Part shown: in pieces, positions 10,902 to 19,457 of the stretch | Numbering within the stretch: the stretch's first letter is position 1 | Layout of the letters: the number at the start of each line of letters is the position of its first letter | Origin: a bacterium SCSIO 12741 | GTDB taxonomy: Bacteria > Bacteroidota > Bacteroidia > Flavobacteriales_G > Salibacteraceae | Assembly (NCBI GenBank): GCA_024398055.1 | Contig: CP073749.1 | Coordinates: forward strand, 434,001-498,000 | DNA length: 64,000 nucleotides | Reading direction: 5' to 3' | Translations under genes and position numbers: made by a program | The notes under the pieces: generated by a model | Seen by the model: only the letters and a program-made list of their open reading frames with translations | What the model was told of the DNA's origin: nothing | Database searches by the model: none

Positions 10902-13457
10902 ATGAAATCGAATAGAATACTCATAAGCCTTGGACTGCTGCTTGCCTTTGCATTTGGTCTGCAGGCTCAAACTGATTATGAAAAGCGCCTGGAAAGAATG
11001 CACCAGGAAGAAGGCAAGATCAAACTCTTTATTCAAGAGCATCTAAATGATCCAATTCCCGAGTCACATTTGGATCAATTTTACCACCATTATGAACACG
11101 AGGACGAACATCACGGATCGTTTCATTTTGATGAGGCCCAAAAGGAAGCCCACCTGGAAACACTAAAAAAGCAGTATTGGAGAGTTCAATATTTTATTGA
11201 AAACCCGGATGCCTATGGTGTTTTTGAAGCCAAAGCTGTGGCCAATTGCAACAACGGAGATTTTGAACTCGGCAATTTTACCGGATATTCTTTGGCTTCG
11301 GGCAATTCGGAAGCGGGTAACGGCTACAGCGGAGGGGAATGCAGCTTTGTTCCTACTACCACCTTTGGGTCACTGACTCCTGAGACCCCACTTATCAATA
11401 CGGATAATTTGGACATTGTTGGCGTTGGAACTGATCCCTACGCTCCCATTCAGCAGATCAACCCGGCACCGGGATTAGGTGGAAACTATGCTGCCAGAAT
11501 CAATGGAGGAAAACCTCTTGCTAATCCTTTGGGGCCATTAGGTCCTTGTCGCCCCTACCAAGGTGTAAATCGTTTGTCACGAACCGTAACCCTTACCTCA
11601 TCAGAGATTGAAGAAATTGGCTTTTATTATGCCCTGGTTCTTGAATATCCTAACCATGTCAATGGAAATCCTTTCTTTTTGGCACGTGCTCTGGATGCTT
11701 CCGGCAACGAGCTGGATAGAGTCTGTCGGGTTTCGGATCCAAGTAGCCCCTTCTTCGGCAATGTTCCCTTCACAACTTATGGGGGATGCTCCATATCTCA
11801 AGTGGTCTATTCGGACTGGACCTGCGACGAGCTTGAAGTTAGTGGATCTCCTGGAGATGTAATTACTCTGGAATTTTACGCCGTTGACTGTGCCGCCGGT
11901 GCTCACTTTGGATACGCCTATGTAGATGACATCTGCGAACCTTGTATCGCCGACTCCTGCAACTTTACCGGAAGCATCGATCTAAATCCATCGGACACCT
12001 GCTTTACTGATAGCACTTACACCGTTTGCGGTTCGTTCGAAATGGCGGTGGTTGCCTGTACTTCAGCAACGGTGAATAGCATCACGCTTAACGTGATTCA
12101 AGGAGCCACATCTTACCCAGTAACCGTTACCCCTGTGATTAATATGGTGGATCAAACCTTCTGTTTTACCCTTACCGAAGCCGATTTCCCTTTTCCATCA
12201 GGTTCATACGACTTTGAAGTAGCCATAGAATTTGGATTAACCGGTGGTACTCACACCGAAACAGACATACATACACAACCGGGAATTGAAAACGATGTAA
12301 GTTTCGATTGCTGCGACTTTGTTCCCGTCATCACCTTTGCTGGAGACACTTGTTACGACCCTTGTGAAAATCCGGAAATTCCAGTTACACTCTACGTAAT
12401 TGACGCGGTGACCGGTGAAGCGCTTACCTCCCCTCCTTATACCTTCTTGTGGGATGATGGAGCCACCACACACTTTACCTCCGGTTTTGTCAATACCCCG
12501 GTTTCGGTTACCGTTACAGATACCGAAGAGTGCTCCGCCGTTGATTCCATTCTTATCGAATGCGACACCTGCCATTGCGAGCTCAATTATTTTAACCTGG
12601 CTATCGATTGGATCAACCGATGTGAAGTTTCATTTTCGGTTGGTGGATTCAGTTTTACAGACACCAATTGTTACATCTCGCATATTAACTGGGATTTTGG
12701 TGATGGAAACACAACCACACTGGCTCCAGGTACAAGTCCCGTTCACACCTATTCGGGCAGTGGTGATTACCTGGTTTGTGCTACGGCAGTAGTTCAGTCC
12801 ACCCTCGATCAAGGATGTTTTGACACGTTGACCAGATGCGTCATTGCCCATGTGACCAATTGCCAACCTTGCGACTGTGACATCAGTGATTTCACCCTAT
12901 TGAACCCGAACATAAATGGCTGTACGGCCGCCTTTTCAGCGATCAGTCCTGTAATCAGTTCCTCCGATTGCCAACCGACCAACATTATCTGGGACTTTGG
13001 CGATGGTGGGGTTGTTACTCTTCCTTACAACGTGAGCCCAGTTCACAACTACAGTTCAAACGGCGTTTATACGGTGTGTGCGACCTACTTTGTGCAATCC
13101 ACCTCAAATCCAAATTGCATAGATCATATCACGAAGTGCATCACCATTACGATTAACAATTGCCACCACAATACACCGCAGGCACCAAATGGCAATAGTT
13201 CATCCACTCACGGTGAACTTCAGGTTTATCCGAATCCCACTGACGGAGACTTGCACGTTCAATTTCAATCGGATCAGGCGCAAACCCTTGTCCTGGAAAT
13301 TTTGACGGTAGATGGCCAGGTATTAAGCCGACAGGAACAACTTTATGACTCAGAAGAGATTAAGGTTAGTACCCACACCCTTTCTCCGGGCAGTTATCTT
13401 CTTAAAGTTATACCGGACCTTGGGAACCCGATAACCCAATCGTTTATTAAGGAATAG
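10902..13457 (+). CDS. Secreted PKD-domain protein with T9SS C-terminal sorting domain
   Basis: 851-aa extracellular or surface protein. The signal peptide is residues 1-22 (LGLLLAFAFGLQAQ). A long Cys-rich region of adhesin-like beta domains follows. Two PKD-type domains carry WDFGDG (about 597 and 697), and the C-terminal T9SS sorting domain begins at LQVYPNPTDG (about 773). The T9SS domain directs export and attachment at the cell surface. The function is probably adhesion or structural; no catalytic motif was seen. The gene stands alone and ends at a strong bidirectional terminator. Confidence 0.88.
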   Translation: MKSNRILISLGLLLAFAFGLQAQTDYEKRLERMHQEEGKIKLFIQEHLNDPIPESHLDQFYHHYEHEDEHHGSFHFDEAQKEAHLETLKKQYWRVQYFIENPDAYGVFEAKAVANCNNGDFELGNFTGYSLASGNSEAGNGYSGGECSFVPTTTFGSLTPETPLINTDNLDIVGVGTDPYAPIQQINPAPGLGGNYAARINGGKPLANPLGPLGPCRPYQGVNRLSRTVTLTSSEIEEIGFYYALVLEYPNHVNGNPFFLARALDASGNELDRVCRVSDPSSPFFGNVPFTTYGGCSISQVVYSDWTCDELEVSGSPGDVITLEFYAVDCAAGAHFGYAYVDDICEPCIADSCNFTGSIDLNPSDTCFTDSTYTVCGSFEMAVVACTSATVNSITLNVIQGATSYPVTVTPVINMVDQTFCFTLTEADFPFPSGSYDFEVAIEFGLTGGTHTETDIHTQPGIENDVSFDCCDFVPVITFAGDTCYDPCENPEIPVTLYVIDAVTGEALTSPPYTFLWDDGATTHFTSGFVNTPVSVTVTDTEECSAVDSILIECDTCHCELNYFNLAIDWINRCEVSFSVGGFSFTDTNCYISHINWDFGDGNTTTLAPGTSPVHTYSGSGDYLVCATAVVQSTLDQGCFDTLTRCVIAHVTNCQPCDCDISDFTLLNPNINGCTAAFSAISPVISSSDCQPTNIIWDFGDGGVVTLPYNVSPVHNYSSNGVYTVCATYFVQSTSNPNCIDHITKCITITINNCHHNTPQAPNGNSSSTHGELQVYPNPTDGDLHVQFQSDQAQTLVLEILTVDGQVLSRQEQLYDSEEIKVSTHTLSPGSYLLKVIPDLGNPITQSFIKE

Positions 13458-13541: not shown

Positions 13542-14255
13542 TCAAATTACATGATGCTCAGCCACCGCCCCTTCTTTATTCATGGAGTAGAGCGTGGTTA
13601 ACTGGCTATTTCGCTGACCAAGATAGTTTGCATAAGAATCGCTAAAAGCGATACGGTTATCAAATATTTCCTGGTGGCGACCTGAAAGCCCCATCAACAA
13701 TTCACAGGATTCTCTTACACCATGTTCTTCTCCACTACCCCCGGTTTCGTAATGAGCCAGGTGTTTGCTTCGAACGTATTCCGCAAACAAAATTTTGGAC
13801 GAAGAATGAATGAAGATTTTAACCCCCGCTTCTCGAGCCACAGGAATATCGAGCACATCATCGTAGAAAAAGGCTACTTCTTCTGCTTTCAAGGAATTGA
13901 GCTCCAGAAAATGCTTCCAGGCCAAGGTCTTATTAGGAACCTTAAAATAGACTTGATTGAAATGCTCACGTCCGGCTAAATCGTAAGCCGCTTGATTATC
14001 GGCTCCCGTCAAAATAGCGGTAATGGGAACTTGCCCGTTGGACTCCAGATACTTTCCAAAGCGCATCAAATTGGTGCCCATGGAATCAATTTCGGAGAAC
14101 CCGCTGGAAGCATTTCCCCCTTTCCATCCGGAGTTGAACACACCATCCCAATCAAACAAAAAGGCTTTCACCTGGCTGTATCGTTCGACCAGCTCGTTGA
14201 CAGAAATGTGAAACTTCCCTCCCCTTTCGAGGAAAAGGGTTGCTATGTCGTCCAT
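13542..14255 (-). CDS. kdsC: KdsC-type HAD phosphatase (Kdo-8-phosphate phosphatase)
   Basis: HAD-superfamily hydrolase expected to dephosphorylate Kdo-8-phosphate to Kdo. Motif I FDWDGVFNSG (about 35-44), motif II ILTG, the Lys region KVPNKTLAW and motif IV FFYDDVLDIPVA are all in order. The KdsC-like tail SGEEHGVRESCELLMGL matches the GGxGxVRExxxLLL tail that closes the KdsC active site. At 237 aa it is longer than E. coli KdsC (about 188), with extra N- and C-terminal segments. It lies 15 bp downstream of the aldolase-CBS gene in the kds operon, which supports the assignment. Divergence from classical KdsC leaves a related 2-keto-sugar phosphatase possible. Confidence 0.82.
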   Translation of the reverse strand: MDDIATLFLERGGKFHISVNELVERYSQVKAFLFDWDGVFNSGWKGGNASSGFSEIDSMGTNLMRFGKYLESNGQVPITAILTGADNQAAYDLAGREHFNQVYFKVPNKTLAWKHFLELNSLKAEEVAFFYDDVLDIPVAREAGVKIFIHSSSKILFAEYVRSKHLAHYETGGSGEEHGVRESCELLMGLSGRHQEIFDNRIAFSDSYANYLGQRNSQLTTLYSMNKEGAVAEHHVI

Positions 14256-14270
14256 AATTTCTGGGTTTTA

Positions 14271-15281
14271 TTAACCCGCCAAGTCCTGGATATCCAGCAC
14301 ACCGATAGGCTGACCGTTTTCCAGCACCAACAAGTTGTCTACGTGAGTCTTCTTGAATACTCCGTTGGCTTCTTCCAATAGAGCTGAAGATTCGATAGAA
14401 ACAGGCGTACCGTAATCCACATCGGCCAAGGTCATGTTCATGATGTTTCCACCAGCAGTACCCATCAAACGACGAAGATCGCCATCTGTAAAGATACCAG
14501 CCATAGAACCATCAGCATTCATTACCACGATGCAGCCAAATCCATATTCAGTCATCTTGATCACCGCTTCAGGAAGTGGCGTGTTGATGGCAACAGTAGG
14601 ATTCACATTGCTAATCGCAGACTTAACCGTGTTTGTAATCAAACGGGTGTGCTCAAAGAATTGATCCGTTCCAACGCGGGTAAAGTTGTTGTCGGTCAAT
14701 TGCTTCATCACTTTCCAAGGTACCGTACAAACGTGTACACCGGCGTTGATCGCATTGCGAACGTGCTCAGCGTGACGTACCGAGGAGAACATGATTTTAG
14801 AATCGTAGTGGTAGTAGTTAACCGCATTCACACATTGCTCAATCAAGCCCAAGGCATCGTGACCTTGATCCTGAAGACGTCCAACCAATGGACATACGTA
14901 GGTAGCACCCGCTTCCATGGCCATATAAGCTTGCTGGAGGGTGTACACCAAGTGAACGTTTACCATGATATCGCGATCGGCAAGCATTTTACAAGCTCTC
15001 ACCCCTTCCAGAGAAACGGGAATTTTGAACACTGTTTTTTCCTTGCTCAAGCCCATGTCGAGCTGACGATCGGCTTCTGCTACGATTTCCTCAGCTGTAG
15101 AACCCAGGGCTTCAATCTGAAGGATAGGCACCATGTCAGCCAGTTTGAGAATCATTTCATCCAGATCGGTCACTCCTTCACGGTGCATGAAGGTAGGAGT
15201 AGTAGTCAATCCGGTAAGGAAACCTAATTTAAAGGCTCCTTCAATTTCATTGATATCGGCAGAATCGAGGTATAATTCCAT
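14271..15281 (-). CDS. FSA/transaldolase-like aldolase fused to a KdsD-type CBS pair
   Basis: 336-aa fusion. Residues 1-215 are a fructose-6-phosphate-aldolase/TalC-type TIM barrel: MELYLDSAD start with Asp6, TTTPT (26-30), Schiff-base Lys86 in FKIPVSLEG, YVCPLVGR (128-135). Residues about 232-336 are two CBS domains whose GIFTDGDLRR and closing PIGVLDIQDL match the CBS tail of arabinose-5-phosphate isomerases (KdsD/KpsF). The SIS isomerase domain is absent. By eye against E. coli FSA, Asn28 is Thr, Ala129 is Cys and Tyr131 is Leu. Its place between kdsC and kdsA suggests it supplies arabinose 5-phosphate, perhaps by aldol addition of glycolaldehyde to glyceraldehyde 3-phosphate. The fold is certain; the reaction is inference. 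Confidence 0.85.
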   Translation of the reverse strand: MELYLDSADINEIEGAFKLGFLTGLTTTPTFMHREGVTDLDEMILKLADMVPILQIEALGSTAEEIVAEADRQLDMGLSKEKTVFKIPVSLEGVRACKMLADRDIMVNVHLVYTLQQAYMAMEAGATYVCPLVGRLQDQGHDALGLIEQCVNAVNYYHYDSKIMFSSVRHAEHVRNAINAGVHVCTVPWKVMKQLTDNNFTRVGTDQFFEHTRLITNTVKSAISNVNPTVAINTPLPEAVIKMTEYGFGCIVVMNADGSMAGIFTDGDLRRLMGTAGGNIMNMTLADVDYGTPVSIESSALLEEANGVFKKTHVDNLLVLENGQPIGVLDIQDLAG

Positions 15282-15331
15282 GTTGTTTTGTTGTTACGTG
15301 AATGGGAATATAGGAGTTCCGAGAGGCAATA

Positions 15332-16180
15332 TTAAGAATTCACAACTTTCTCTCGGTAATTCACTTCTAAATTATGTATGTCAATTAACGGTTTAATAAA
15401 CTCTTCCAGGTCGTATACGCAAAGTTGACTGGCAGCATCGCACAAAGCTTTTTCCGGTTCGGGATGCGTTTCAATAAATACACCATCCACTCCGGCAGCT
15501 ACACCTGCACGAGCAATGGTAGGCAAGAACTCACGGTTTCCACCTTTAGGATCCGCACTTGGAATTCCATACTTACGAATGGAGTGCGTAATGTCGAATA
15601 CCACCGGGTAACCGGATTGACGCAAATGGTAGAAACTTCTGGGATCAACAATCAAGTCGTTGTATCCGAAGGTGTACCCTCTTTCGGTCAATATCACTTG
15701 ACTGTTTCCTGATTCTTCCAGTTTTTGAACCGGCTTAATCATGTTTTCAGGAGCCAGGAATTGTCCATGTTTCAGGTTAACTACCTTACCGGTTTTAGCA
15801 GACTCAACAAGCAACTCCGATTGCATACACAAGTAGGCAGGAATCTGAATTACATCCAACACTTCGCCAGCTGGTGCTGCTTGAGAAGGATTGTGAATGT
15901 CACTCAACAGGGTAAAACCAAAATCGTCTTTGATGCGCTGAAGCATTTTCAGGCCTTCATCCAATCCCGGTCCCTGGTAATACTTAAGGGAAGAACGGTT
16001 GTCTTTGGTAAAGGAAGATTTGTAAATGATTTTCAGGTTCATCCGCTCAGAAACCTCTTTTAGCTTCTCGGCGGTCTTTAACATCACCTGCTCATCTTCA
16101 ATCACACAAGGTCCTGAAATGAGAAAGAGCTCATCGGAACCGCAGGAGATATCTCCTACCTGAATTATTTTTTCGGACAT
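15332..16180 (-). CDS. kdsA: 3-deoxy-8-phosphooctulonate synthase (Kdo-8-P synthase), metal-dependent type
   Basis: Condenses arabinose 5-phosphate with PEP to Kdo-8-phosphate, the first committed Kdo step. The 282-aa length is normal. Family blocks are present: KSSFTKDNRSS, LLSDIH, LKHGQFLAPENM, VFDITHSIRKYG and the C-terminal DGVFIETHPEPEKALCD. The N-terminal LISGPCVIE has Cys where metal-independent enzymes have Asn, so this should be the metal-dependent class. It is in an operon with kdsB upstream (separated by heptad element B) and the aldolase-CBS gene downstream (50 bp). Confidence 0.96.
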   Translation of the reverse strand: MSEKIIQVGDISCGSDELFLISGPCVIEDEQVMLKTAEKLKEVSERMNLKIIYKSSFTKDNRSSLKYYQGPGLDEGLKMLQRIKDDFGFTLLSDIHNPSQAAPAGEVLDVIQIPAYLCMQSELLVESAKTGKVVNLKHGQFLAPENMIKPVQKLEESGNSQVILTERGYTFGYNDLIVDPRSFYHLRQSGYPVVFDITHSIRKYGIPSADPKGGNREFLPTIARAGVAAGVDGVFIETHPEPEKALCDAASQLCVYDLEEFIKPLIDIHNLEVNYREKVVNS

Positions 16181-16217
16181 ACTACCGGTTTAAATTTCAG
16201 CGGCAAAAATAGACTAA

Positions 16218-16266
16218 TTCGAAATTTGAATGTTGAATTTTCAACGCTCAATTTTCAATCTGATCG
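16218..16266. repeat. Heptad inverted-repeat element B
   Basis: Seven consecutive 7-bp units in one register: TTCGAAA, TTTGAAT, GTTGAAT, TTTCAAC, GCTCAAT, TTTCAAT, CTGATCG. The centre forms a hairpin (16226-16237 pairing with 16240-16251, 10 of 12 positions). It lies between kdsB and kdsA, two genes of the same operon, so it would be part of the mRNA. Confidence 0.65.
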
Positions 16267-16320
16267 CAATTGGGTCAGGAATCGAGGATTTAACCTGCAA
16301 ACGGCCTCCAAATCTACGGC

Positions 16321-17091
16321 TTACCGTTCTCCTTCTTCCCTACTTTTCAGGAGGTACCGAACCTTTTCCAGATCGTCGATGGTGTCAACTGGAATGGAGT
16401 CGTGATCGGTGATTTCGATACGGATGGAATTTCCGTTTTCAATCCAGCGATTTTGCTCGAGTGATTCCATCTTTTCTAAATTGGACATGGGTAGCCCGGC
16501 AAATTCTTTCAAGGCTTCATAGGAATAGCCGTACAGCCCGATGTGCTTGTAGAAAGTATTGAACTCCATCCAGCGGGTTTTATGTACTCCTCTGATGTGG
16601 GGAATTACCGCCCGACTGAAATAAAGCGCTTCCTTTCTTCGGTTGAATACCACAAAGACTTCGCTCTCATTAAACAGATCTTCCTGAGAGCTCACGGGCA
16701 ATACCAAAGTGGCCAATTGCGTATTGGGTTGCTCAAAACAGCTCAGCAAATCCCTAAGTTGTTGAGGGTCGAGCATAGGCTCGTCGCCTTGTACGTTGAC
16801 TATAATATCAAAGGATTCCCCGGTCAATTCCATGATACGCTCATAGGCCTCTAAGCATCGGGTAGTACCATTCTCATGATCCGGTGAGGTCATAATTACG
16901 TTTCCACCAAATTCAACCACCGCCATTTTGATCCGCTCATCATCCGTTGCAACGAATACAGTATCAATAGCTTGACGCGTTTGTTCGTAGACCCGTTGGA
17001 TCATCGTTTTACCCAAAATATCAACCAATGGTTTTCCCTCCAGGCGAGTGGATCCATATCGAGCGGGAATAATGGCTACGGCTTTCTTCAT
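16321..17091 (-). CDS. kdsB: 3-deoxy-manno-octulosonate cytidylyltransferase (CMP-Kdo/CMP-Kdo8N synthetase)
   Basis: Activates Kdo, or here probably Kdo8N, with CTP to the CMP-sugar used by the Kdo transferase. It has 256 aa with the nucleotide-binding IIPARYGSTRLEGKPL at the N-terminus, VQGDEPML in the middle, and TFYKHIGLYGYS plus EKMESLEQNRWIENG near the end, all KdsB hallmarks. I chose the ATG at 17091 because the in-frame ATG at 17121 lies upstream of the promoter -7 element at 17108-17115. It is the first gene of the minus-strand kds operon. Linkage to kdnA/kdnB suggests the amino sugar is the true substrate, as in Shewanella; this is inference. Confidence 0.95.
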   Translation of the reverse strand: MKKAVAIIPARYGSTRLEGKPLVDILGKTMIQRVYEQTRQAIDTVFVATDDERIKMAVVEFGGNVIMTSPDHENGTTRCLEAYERIMELTGESFDIIVNVQGDEPMLDPQQLRDLLSCFEQPNTQLATLVLPVSSQEDLFNESEVFVVFNRRKEALYFSRAVIPHIRGVHKTRWMEFNTFYKHIGLYGYSYEALKEFAGLPMSNLEKMESLEQNRWIENGNSIRIEITDHDSIPVDTIDDLEKVRYLLKSREEGER

Positions 17092-17107
17092 TCCTTGGAA
17101 TTTGGCA

Positions 17108-17115
17108 CAAATATA
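17108..17115 (-). promoter_or_regulatory. -7 promoter element of the kds operon
   Basis: TATATTTG on the minus strand is a perfect TAnnTTTG match. It predicts a transcription start near 17102, about 11 nt before the kdsB ATG at 17091. Only 15 bp separate it from the opposing kdnA element. Confidence 0.55.
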
Positions 17116-17130
17116 GAGCAAACTTTATCC

Positions 17131-17138
17131 TACTTTTG
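17131..17138 (+). promoter_or_regulatory. -7 promoter element of kdnAB
   Basis: TACTTTTG on the plus strand matches TAnnTTTG. The predicted start near 17144 gives a leader of about 26 nt before the ATG at 17171. It is back to back with the kds operon promoter. Confidence 0.55.
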
Positions 17139-17170
17139 TGCCCTTTAACAGCTTAAATCAAAACGTCACT

Positions 17171-18364
17171 ATGCCAGGAACAGAGTTATTTGGAGCCGAA
17201 GAGAGAAAAGAAGTAAATGATGTACTGGAAACAGGCATTCTATTTCGCTACGGACACGATGCCCAGCGCAATGGTCATTGGAAAACTCGTGATTTTGAAC
17301 AGGAAGTTGCCTCCTTCACCGGAGCTGCTCACGCTCATGCCGTAAGCAGTGGAACAGCAGCGATTATCACCGCTCTTGCTGCAGCAGGAATTGGACATGG
17401 TGACGAAGTGATTTGCACGCCTTTCACCTTTATGGCTACGAACGAAGCTGTAGTCTTCTTAGGAGGTATTCCGGTATTTGCTGAAGTAGATGAAACACTT
17501 TGTTTGTCTCCGGAAGGAATTGAAGCGGCTATTACTCCTAATACCAGGGCTGTTTGTTTGGTTCACATGTGTGGCGCCATGGCCCGTATGGATGAAATCA
17601 TGGCGGTGTGTGAGAAACACAACCTGATTTTGGTAGAAGACGCTGGTCAGGCTTTGGGTGCTTCTTATAAAGGAAAGCACGTAGGTCTGTTTGGAGCTGC
17701 CGGAGCATTCTCTTTTGACTTCTTCAAAATTGCTACCTGTGGTGAAGGTGGTGTAATGATCACCAACGATGCAGATACTTATCACAAAGCGGACACCTAC
17801 TCCGATCATGGACACAACCACCAGGGAAGTAACCGTGGAATGGAGCCTCACCCCTACTTGGGTGTAAATTACCGCTTGGGTGAATTGAACGCTGCCGTAG
17901 GTTTGGCTCAAATGAGACGAGTACCTCAAATCATCGAGGCTCAAAAACGAAACAAAAAGATTTTAAAAGACACGCTTGCTGCTATTCCAGAAGTAAGCTT
18001 CCGTCATATTCCTGATCCGGATGGAGATTCAGGTACTTTCCTTTCCTTCTTTATGCCAACGGCTGAGCTTTCTCAAAAGGTAGTAGCCACTTTGGCCGAA
18101 AAAGGAATTCCAGGAGCCAATTACTGGTATACGAATATGTACCACTTCATCAATCAATGGGATCACCTCAAAAATTTGAGCACGGTTTCTAAACTTCCTA
18201 TCAATGTGATGGACTTGCCTCAGGACTACAACAACCTGGAGCTACCTAAATCTCAGGAAGTGGTTGGACGATTGATTTCCTTCGGCATTAGCTGTGCTAA
18301 GAGCGAAGAAGAAATGACTGAATTAGCCAATGCGGTTGCAGCGGCTGTACGTGAAAGCTTGTAA
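17171..18364 (+). CDS. kdnA: DegT/DnrJ/EryC1-family aminotransferase, probable Kdo8N transaminase
   Basis: PLP enzyme of the sugar aminotransferase family (397 aa). The PLP lysine is K186 in FDFFKIATCGEGG, preceded by LVEDAGQALGASY (Asp binding the PLP nitrogen) and SSGTAAIITALAAAGIGHGDE. It is predicted to aminate 8-oxo-Kdo to 8-amino-3,8-dideoxy-manno-octulosonate (Kdo8N), as KdnA does in Shewanella, because it is followed 10 bp later by a KdnB-like oxidase and diverges from kdsB. I chose the ATG at 17171 (MPGTELFG). A GTG at 17138 overlaps the -7 element and is unlikely. Confidence 0.9.
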   Translation: MPGTELFGAEERKEVNDVLETGILFRYGHDAQRNGHWKTRDFEQEVASFTGAAHAHAVSSGTAAIITALAAAGIGHGDEVICTPFTFMATNEAVVFLGGIPVFAEVDETLCLSPEGIEAAITPNTRAVCLVHMCGAMARMDEIMAVCEKHNLILVEDAGQALGASYKGKHVGLFGAAGAFSFDFFKIATCGEGGVMITNDADTYHKADTYSDHGHNHQGSNRGMEPHPYLGVNYRLGELNAAVGLAQMRRVPQIIEAQKRNKKILKDTLAAIPEVSFRHIPDPDGDSGTFLSFFMPTAELSQKVVATLAEKGIPGANYWYTNMYHFINQWDHLKNLSTVSKLPINVMDLPQDYNNLELPKSQEVVGRLISFGISCAKSEEEMTELANAVAAAVRESL

Positions 18365-18374
18365 TTCCCCTACC

Positions 18375-19457
18375 ATGCAGCACATTAATTTCAACAACAT
18401 CGGTAAGATCTGCTACGGAAAAGGTAGCTTCAATCAACTCGGAGAAATCTTAGAACCTCGCCGTTCGGATAACCAAGGCTACATGGTTTTCTGTGTAGAC
18501 GATTACTTCGAGGGTAAAGAACTGGCGGATCGTCTTCCTGTGGAATCCAGGGATATGGTCTACTTTATCGATGCAAGTCATGATGAACCCAAGACTTCTC
18601 AAATTGATGAAATGCGAGATGAGATTTTGGAAAAGCAAGGCTTGCCTTCCGGAATCGTTGGTATTGGTGGTGGTAGCATTATGGACATTGCCAAAGCCCT
18701 GTCCTTGATGGTGACCAATGAAGGTTCTTCTACCCTTTATCAGGGATTGAACCTGATTAAAAAGCCGGGTATCTACCACTGTGGTGTTCCTACTATTTCA
18801 GGTACGGGTGCTGAATGTTCGATGACGGCTGTTTTGAGTGGACCTGAGAAAAAATTGGGATTGAAGTGTGAGTGGACGGTTTTCAACCAAGTTGTTTTGG
18901 ACCCGGATTTAACGGCAACAGTGCCTACTGATCAGTGGTTCTACACCGGTATGGACACGTTCATCCATTGCATCGAAAGTGCTACGGGTATTAAGTACAA
19001 TACTTTCTCTAAGGCTTATGGCGATCAGTCCATCGAGCTTTGTAAAGAAGTTTTCCTGGGTGAAAACGCCGGACAAACTCCAGAGAACGATGAAAAGCTT
19101 ATGCTGGCCTCCTTGTTTGGTGGATTGAGTTTGACCTATTCAGAAGTGGGTGTTTGTCACGCCCTTTCCTACGGATTAAGTTTTGTTTTCGGAACCCGTC
19201 ATGGTTATGCAAACTGCTTAGCATTTAACCACTTGAAAGATGTTTACGGTGACGCTGTAGATGATTTCCACGTAATGTTGGATCGATTTGGCATTGATCT
19301 TCCTCAAAATTTGGCCGCTGGCTGGACAGAAGAAGAGATTACCGCCATGGCCGAAATCGCTATTCGATTGGAGCATATGTGGCACCATGCCTTCGGTGAA
19401 AACTGGAAGGAAAAGGTAGACATGGACTACATAAAAGACTTGTACCGAAGAATGTAA
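18375..19457 (+). CDS. kdnB: Iron-type alcohol dehydrogenase, probable Kdo 8-oxidase
   Basis: 360-aa metal-dependent alcohol dehydrogenase. It has the NAD-binding GIGGGSIMDIAKA, the metal ligands in MDTFIHCIE (Asp and His), VCHALSYGLS (His) and GTRHGYANC (His), and the PTISGTGAE block. Family and context match KdnB, which oxidises the C8 hydroxyl of Kdo before KdnA aminates it. I start at the ATG at 18375 (MQHINFNNIG), 10 bp after the kdnA stop. A longer in-frame start at 18330 would overlap kdnA. Together with kdnA it predicts Kdo8N in the LPS core. Confidence 0.9.
   Translation: MQHINFNNIGKICYGKGSFNQLGEILEPRRSDNQGYMVFCVDDYFEGKELADRLPVESRDMVYFIDASHDEPKTSQIDEMRDEILEKQGLPSGIVGIGGGSIMDIAKALSLMVTNEGSSTLYQGLNLIKKPGIYHCGVPTISGTGAECSMTAVLSGPEKKLGLKCEWTVFNQVVLDPDLTATVPTDQWFYTGMDTFIHCIESATGIKYNTFSKAYGDQSIELCKEVFLGENAGQTPENDEKLMLASLFGGLSLTYSEVGVCHALSYGLSFVFGTRHGYANCLAFNHLKDVYGDAVDDFHVMLDRFGIDLPQNLAAGWTEEEITAMAEIAIRLEHMWHHAFGENWKEKVDMDYIKDLYRRM

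Follow-up and report, generated by a model that had tools for sequence, protein, structure and literature searches.

Most Gram-negative bacteria cannot do without 3-deoxy-D-manno-octulosonic acid (Kdo), whose first committed precursor is not known to have a natural source other than the SIS isomerases, the family of KdsD, KpsF and GutQ. Arabinose 5-phosphate (A5P) can also be made by aldolases of another fold. For the fructose-6-phosphate aldolases (FSAs) of E. coli, glycolaldehyde is a preferred donor and glyceraldehyde 3-phosphate a preferred acceptor, and the two are joined to A5P (PMC6298115); FsaA forms only the D-arabino product from these two and no ribose 5-phosphate (PMC9947464, PMC6298115), while a variant of the transaldolase TalB yields both (PMC9947464). 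Here we describe a Kdo gene cluster in a 64,000-nucleotide stretch of the genome of the Salibacteraceae bacterium SCSIO 12741 (contig CP073749.1, positions 434,001 to 498,000; hereafter the window), in which an aldolase barrel with a C-terminal CBS pair of the KdsD type appears to take the place of the isomerase. Many environmental Bacteroidota that carry this fusion and Kdo genes but no isomerase point to an undescribed start of the Kdo pathway, and we found no earlier description of the fusion in open-access papers. Our best overall explanation, to which we give a probability of roughly 0.5, is that the fusion replaces KdsD, makes A5P by an aldol route and is under feedback control through its CBS domains.

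Architecture and active site of the fusion

The fusion gene (14271-15281, minus strand) encodes 336 amino acids, in which Pfam finds a TAL_FSA domain (PF00923, residues 3-202, 112.8 bits against a cut-off of 27) and CBS domains (54.3 bits). No SIS domain was found by Pfam, and the KpsF/GutQ model TIGR00393 aligns at model positions 156-267 only. Residues 1-216 (14634-15281, minus strand) make up a Schiff-base barrel of the transaldolase/FSA type with an altered active site, and residues 217-336 (14274-14633, minus strand) the CBS pair, with GIFTDGDLRR from residue 262 and PIGVLDIQDL from 325. In the AlphaFold model (mean pLDDT 89.7), the barrel superposes on B. subtilis transaldolase 3r8r with a VIA-align Z of 27.6 and a root mean square deviation of 1.8 over 208 residues. 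The PF00923 profile and the Schiff-base lysine, Lys86 in all 98 fusions aligned, place the protein in the transaldolase/FSA superfamily; an alignment of 98 homologues with the same architecture also excludes a chance fusion. Profiles and structure matches thus confirm what an earlier note on this DNA had read from the letters: a Lys86 barrel joined to the CBS pair of KdsD, with the SIS domain missing.

The barrel is no ordinary FSA, and its active site is non-standard. It falls below the equivalog cut-off of the fructose-6-phosphate aldolase model TIGR00875 (160.7 bits against 245.95). We aligned the 98 fusions with E. coli FsaA, whose sequence is letter-for-letter identical to 1L6W, and with 39 ordinary FSAs from this phylum. 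All 98 fusions have D6, T26, E57 (Q59 in FsaA), K86, N108, R135, S167, R169 and H173. Six positions are replaced in 98/98 fusions relative to 39/39 ordinary FSAs: N28T, T109H (H110), S/A129C (C130), F/Y131L (L132), A165S (S166) and D136Q (Q137). In TalB and FsaA, residues among these position the catalytic water and the donor hydroxyls: T109 corresponds to TalB T156, which holds the water, and the Ser that is Cys in every fusion to TalB S176, which contacts the extra CH2OH of dihydroxyacetone. A Cys there would suit a donor without that group, such as glycolaldehyde. Since the water- and hydroxyl-positioning residues are changed as a set, with the lysine and the phosphate site kept, the barrel appears to serve a dedicated reaction, which argues against housekeeping transaldolase work.

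Judged by sequence and structure comparison, the CBS pair is of the KdsD type. Besides TIGR00393 it aligns with the KdsD model NF008141, and when modelled alone its first structure matches are the CBS pairs of the A5P isomerases 3k2v, 4o9k and 3fna; 4o9k is titled as a complex in the PDB, and its ligand is probably CMP-Kdo, which would make the pair a feedback sensor. A hidden Markov model of the fusion CBS pairs gave 55.7-82.6 bits with 17/17 KdsD CBS pairs, against at most 41 with other CBS proteins and 29.5 with IMPDH. A CBS tree gathers the fusions into a single clade (99/97), next to the KdsD pairs and separate from the majority of the other CBS domains; the outgroup branches are long, and the tree does not resolve which of the two arose first.

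A CBS pair matching the KpsF/GutQ model also occurs on a different barrel in a sister genus (G260-G268). WaaA is present in 8 of its 9 genomes, and KdsA, KdsD and the FSA fusion were found in none of the 9. In G261 (G261:C3, L183, 3321-5964) the pair is joined to a ribulose-phosphate-3-epimerase-like barrel, in a three-gene cluster whose other products are a DAHP-synthase-family protein (370.6 bits to NF006421) and a HAD protein resembling KdsC/KDN9P phosphatases. By coordinates the same cluster is found in G259-G268, and G259, the exception among these to the lack of KdsA/KdsD, carries both it and an FSA-CBS cluster. The epimerase-CBS cluster may be a further route into a Kdo-like sugar, and one type of tail, that of KdsD, may have become attached to entry enzymes of more than one kind.

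Distribution of the fusion and of KdsD

The genome is complete (one contig, 5.1 Mb), and searches of it with PF01380 and TIGR00393 found no SIS-CBS KdsD. What scores best there with TIGR00393 is the CBS pair of the fusion itself, and the SIS proteins of the genome are GlmS, MurQ, one of the phosphoglucose/phosphomannose-isomerase type and two of the GmhA type. We rejected a hidden KdsD on these negative searches and on the GmhA-like character of the two small SIS proteins.

Of 33 genomes of the order, 22 have KdsA, and these divide cleanly: 16 have the fusion, 5 an SIS-CBS KdsD and 1 (G251) an SIS-only KdsD, which adjoins kdsA and scores 163 bits to TIGR00393. No genome has more than one of the three. 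The probability of so clean a split by chance is 1/C(22,6) = 1.3e-5, a figure that treats related genomes as independent; by genus, with 12 genera bearing the fusion, 5 bearing KdsD and none common to both, it is 1.6e-4. Among 247 genomes sampled evenly from the phylum, the fusion is found in 4, all without KdsD, and KdsD in 176. A scan of genome contigs yielded 490 relatives of the fusion, and our counts for named loci refer to the best 80 of these, almost all from Bacteroidota records. They include 50 named fusion genomes, a few of which are also in the order set; 46 lack KdsD, 49 have KdsA, and 4 have fusion and KdsD together. Two of the four, Chryseolinea serpens and a Bacteroidales metagenome-assembled genome (MAG), carry two kdsA genes, one adjoining the fusion and one canonical, as expected if two systems sit side by side. 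The exclusion foreseen in the earlier note is therefore complete among the KdsA-bearing genomes of the order and breaks down in 4 of 50 fusion genomes overall. A normal KdsD both here and in all fusion genomes, the pattern that the note had named as contrary to its proposal, is not what we found. Replacement of KdsD by the fusion has good support.

Two records titled Saccharibacteria and Azovibrio (L086, L121) hold fusion loci of the Bacteroidota type, probably through binning errors in those MAGs.

Partner enzymes

The adjoining kdsA (15332-16180, minus strand) encodes a metal-type Kdo 8-phosphate (Kdo8P) synthase (Cys25) that passes the TIGR01362 equivalog cut-off (329 bits against 314), with A. 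aeolicus KDO8PS (1FWN) as its closest solved relative. Its A5P-phosphate site is remodelled (M119, H138, R202, Y204). We compared 88 fusion-type KdsAs, namely 60 adjacent copies and 28 more from fusion genomes (17 non-adjacent, the rest repeating adjacent ones), with a small canonical set (n = 5). The position of A. aeolicus Arg106, which contacts the A5P phosphate, is Met in 88/88 fusion-type proteins (Met119 here) and Arg in 5/5 canonical ones. Fusion-type KdsAs also always have His at Lys125 and Asp at Ala47, and their L7 loop carries Arg/Tyr plus one inserted residue; the five canonical proteins keep the usual residues. The catalytic Cys11, Lys46, Asn48, Arg49, Ser50, Lys124, His185, Glu222 and Asp233 are retained, as is the NRSS phosphate loop.

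The gene downstream of the fusion, called kdsC-like in the earlier note, does encode a HAD phosphatase (13542-14255, minus strand; 237 amino acids; DxD at 35/37, K109, DD at 132-133), but the likeness to KdsC is distant. It scores 29.2 bits with TIGR01670 (KdsC; subfamily cut-off 106.95) and 46.8 with NF007019 (cut-off 208), and matches solved KdsC structures weakly. Within the order, all 16 fusion genomes have it and none of the 17 others does, which marks it as a fusion-specific partner, not an ordinary KdsC. A canonical YrbI/KdsC-type gene is also present (G000:C1:568371-568823), from a family that nearly all 33 genomes carry, even where KdsA is absent; for this reason we rejected the HAD protein as the sole KdsC. 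In genomes without KdsA this family probably has a role other than Kdo8P hydrolysis. The copy in this genome (L190, 4336-4881) is flanked by a Rossmann-fold (DUF2520-like) gene on one side and by UbiA/Maf genes on the other.

Proposed reaction and alternatives

We propose that the fusion would act as a feedback-regulated entry enzyme that supplies a phosphorylated aldose, most likely A5P, to a KdsA-type synthase. Glycolaldehyde held on Lys86 would add to D-glyceraldehyde 3-phosphate, with the phosphate bound at Arg135/Arg169, to give A5P by Schiff-base aldol addition. KdsA, the fusion-specific HAD protein, KdsB and, where present, KdnB and KdnA would then lead to Kdo or 8-amino-Kdo (Kdo8N), and the CBS pair would sense the pathway product, probably CMP-Kdo. 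The A5P formation known from FSA-type enzymes, together with a Francisella transaldolase structure holding covalently bound A5P (3upb, among the structure matches of the barrel), makes the proposed addition chemically sound. A5P is the likely product, and the aldol route is our leading candidate for the mechanism, at or just short of even odds.

Several points weigh against this proposal. The earlier note had carried over the chemistry and D-arabino stereochemistry of FSA. E. coli FsaA does carry out that chemistry (PMC9947464, PMC6298115), but the stereochemical argument is weakened by the replacements at N28, T109, F/Y131 and elsewhere and by the changed A5P site of KdsA. With T109 turned into His and N28 into Thr in every fusion, the donor choice and stereochemistry of FSA may not be simply transferable, and with Arg106 turned into Met in all fusion-type KdsAs, the substrate of KdsA may be something other than A5P. 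We saw no obvious gene for a glycolaldehyde source in the clusters, and recognized no recurrent glycolaldehyde-producing neighbor among the 80 loci. The known source, dihydroneopterin aldolase, has a low flux. In 11/80 loci (L073, L076, L081, L084, L088, L089, L090, L092, L102, L109, L116), none with a nearby kdsA, the gene immediately upstream of the fusion, in the same orientation, encodes phosphoglycerate kinase, which is weak as a lead to such a source. In addition, many of the 247 genomes drawn across the phylum lack both KdsD and the fusion.

Some of these difficulties would disappear if A5P were made on Lys86 by C2-epimerization of ribose 5-phosphate, which needs no free glycolaldehyde. 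An aldose iminium would form; then either the enamine would be protonated on its opposite face, His110 serving as acid/base, or retro-aldol cleavage and re-addition would follow. Ribose 5-phosphate is abundant, and A5P is its C2 epimer. His110 occupies the catalytic-water position of Thr109/TalB Thr156, and epimerization would account both for the invariant active-site changes and for the missing glycolaldehyde source. The TalB variant that gives A5P and ribose 5-phosphate (PMC9947464) and the covalent adduct in 3upb are also consistent with it. However, no Schiff-base aldolase is known to work in this way and the case is one of mechanistic reasoning, so we consider epimerization unlikely.

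It is also conceivable that the product of the fusion is some other aldose phosphate, which the modified KdsA and the HAD protein turn into a stereoisomer or homologue of Kdo accepted by the rest of the lipopolysaccharide pathway. Three consecutive enzymes are remodelled (the fusion itself; KdsA, with Arg106Met, Lys125His and the L7 loop; and the fusion-specific HAD protein), and the sister genus, with WaaA and without KdsA, has another entry-enzyme-CBS fusion alongside a DAHP-synthase-family protein. Yet KdsA and KdsB still score above their Kdo equivalog cut-offs, KdnA and KdnB are close to the Kdo-specific enzymes of Shewanella, and KdsA keeps its NRSS loop and all its catalytic residues, which together make a different aldose improbable. 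A broader scenario would join these ideas: the start of the Kdo pathway in hundreds of Bacteroidota would have been rebuilt around a new-site barrel, working by aldol addition or C2-epimerization, with a remodelled KdsA and a dedicated phosphatase, leading to Kdo or a differently configured analogue. The KdsD CBS pair would then be a portable feedback module, carried in the sister genus by the ribulose-phosphate-3-epimerase-like barrel. We regard this scenario as possible but doubtful.

The two remaining alternatives are both very unlikely. An ordinary central-metabolism transaldolase or fructose-6-phosphate aldolase with incidental CBS domains would fit the fact that transaldolases are the closest solved relatives of the fusion, but first-shell residues are replaced in 98/98 fusions, the family model score is below its cut-off, the phylogenetic profile tracks KdsA, and a separate FSA/transaldolase (G000:C1:405983-406621, 34% identity) is present in this genome, as in most fusion genomes of the order. 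A promiscuous SIS isomerase, such as one of the two GmhA-like proteins, might make A5P while the fusion acts elsewhere in the pathway, given that an SIS-only KdsD exists in G251 and that this genome has two small SIS proteins; but the one at L006 matches phosphoheptose isomerases, the one at L004 reaches only E=0.004 with TIGR00393, neither is near kdsA, and the mutual exclusion of fusion and KdsD would be left unexplained. The L006 locus (504-2821; G000:C1:184753-187929) combines an HldE-like sugar kinase, the second GmhA-like isomerase and a sugar-nucleotide epimerase, and is probably a second heptose pathway.

Gene cluster and its variation

All six genes named in the earlier note were found at the positions and on the strands it gave (13542-19457 of the window): kdsB, kdsA, the fusion and the HAD gene, in that order, on the minus strand, with kdnA and kdnB divergent. 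The kdsB gene (16321-17121, minus strand; likely start Met11) encodes a CMP-Kdo synthetase, above the TIGR00466 equivalog cut-off (211.7 bits against 155.2). The divergent genes encode close relatives of characterized Shewanella proteins. The kdnA product (17138-18364, plus strand; likely start Met12) is an orthologue of the Kdo8N aminotransferase, with that transaminase (5K8B) as its best solved relative (E=5.4e-144). The kdnB product (18330-19457, plus strand) is an orthologue of Kdo 8-oxidase with the Fe-ADH fold, matching 5K8C at E=3.8e-112 and 3RF7 at E=2.2e-113; its start is likely Met16, probably at 18375, immediately past the kdnA stop.

Among the 80 named loci, the HAD gene is near the fusion in 50, kdsA in 44, kdsB in 30 and kdnA with kdnB in 34. 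A close kdnB homologue is present in 12/16 fusion genomes of the order and 0/17 others, and on these counts we rejected a strict link between the fusion and kdnAB. The earlier suggestion of a Kdo8N-specific device was thus too narrow; the partial linkage indicates that the fusion serves the Kdo pathway generally, with Kdo8N as a frequent extra.

Adjoining the cluster (10902-13457, plus strand) is a gene for an 851-amino-acid secreted protein that contains PKD domains and carries a C-terminal sorting domain for type IX secretion.

Comparison with known systems

The fusion resembles KdsD/KpsF/GutQ in its place in the pathway, as judged by phylogenetic profile, and in its C-terminal CBS pair, and differs in having an unrelated Schiff-base aldolase barrel where these enzymes have an SIS isomerase domain. 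If its proposed role holds, a widespread, non-homologous substitute for the isomerase would supply what seems to be missing from Kdo synthesis in hundreds of genomes, and would show how a regulatory domain can outlast the enzyme that it once controlled. With FsaA/TalC and the small transaldolases (PF00923) the fusion shares the fold, the Lys86 Schiff base, Asp6 and the Arg135/Arg169 phosphate site, but not the set of six replacements, the CBS pair or the genomic tie to Kdo genes. The Kdo8N pathway of Shewanella is similar in that orthologues of kdnA and kdnB adjoin the cluster here, though only part of the fusion clusters have them, and we know of no aldolase-CBS entry enzyme described for that pathway. 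The closest chemical parallel is found in synthetic glycolaldehyde/A5P pathways, where FsaA or TalB F178Y carries out the same proposed reaction (PMC9947464, PMC6298115). Those pathways are engineered, whereas the fusion would be a natural A5P synthase, giving the FSA/transaldolase fold a physiological role in supplying A5P by a reaction whose use has so far been confined to engineering.

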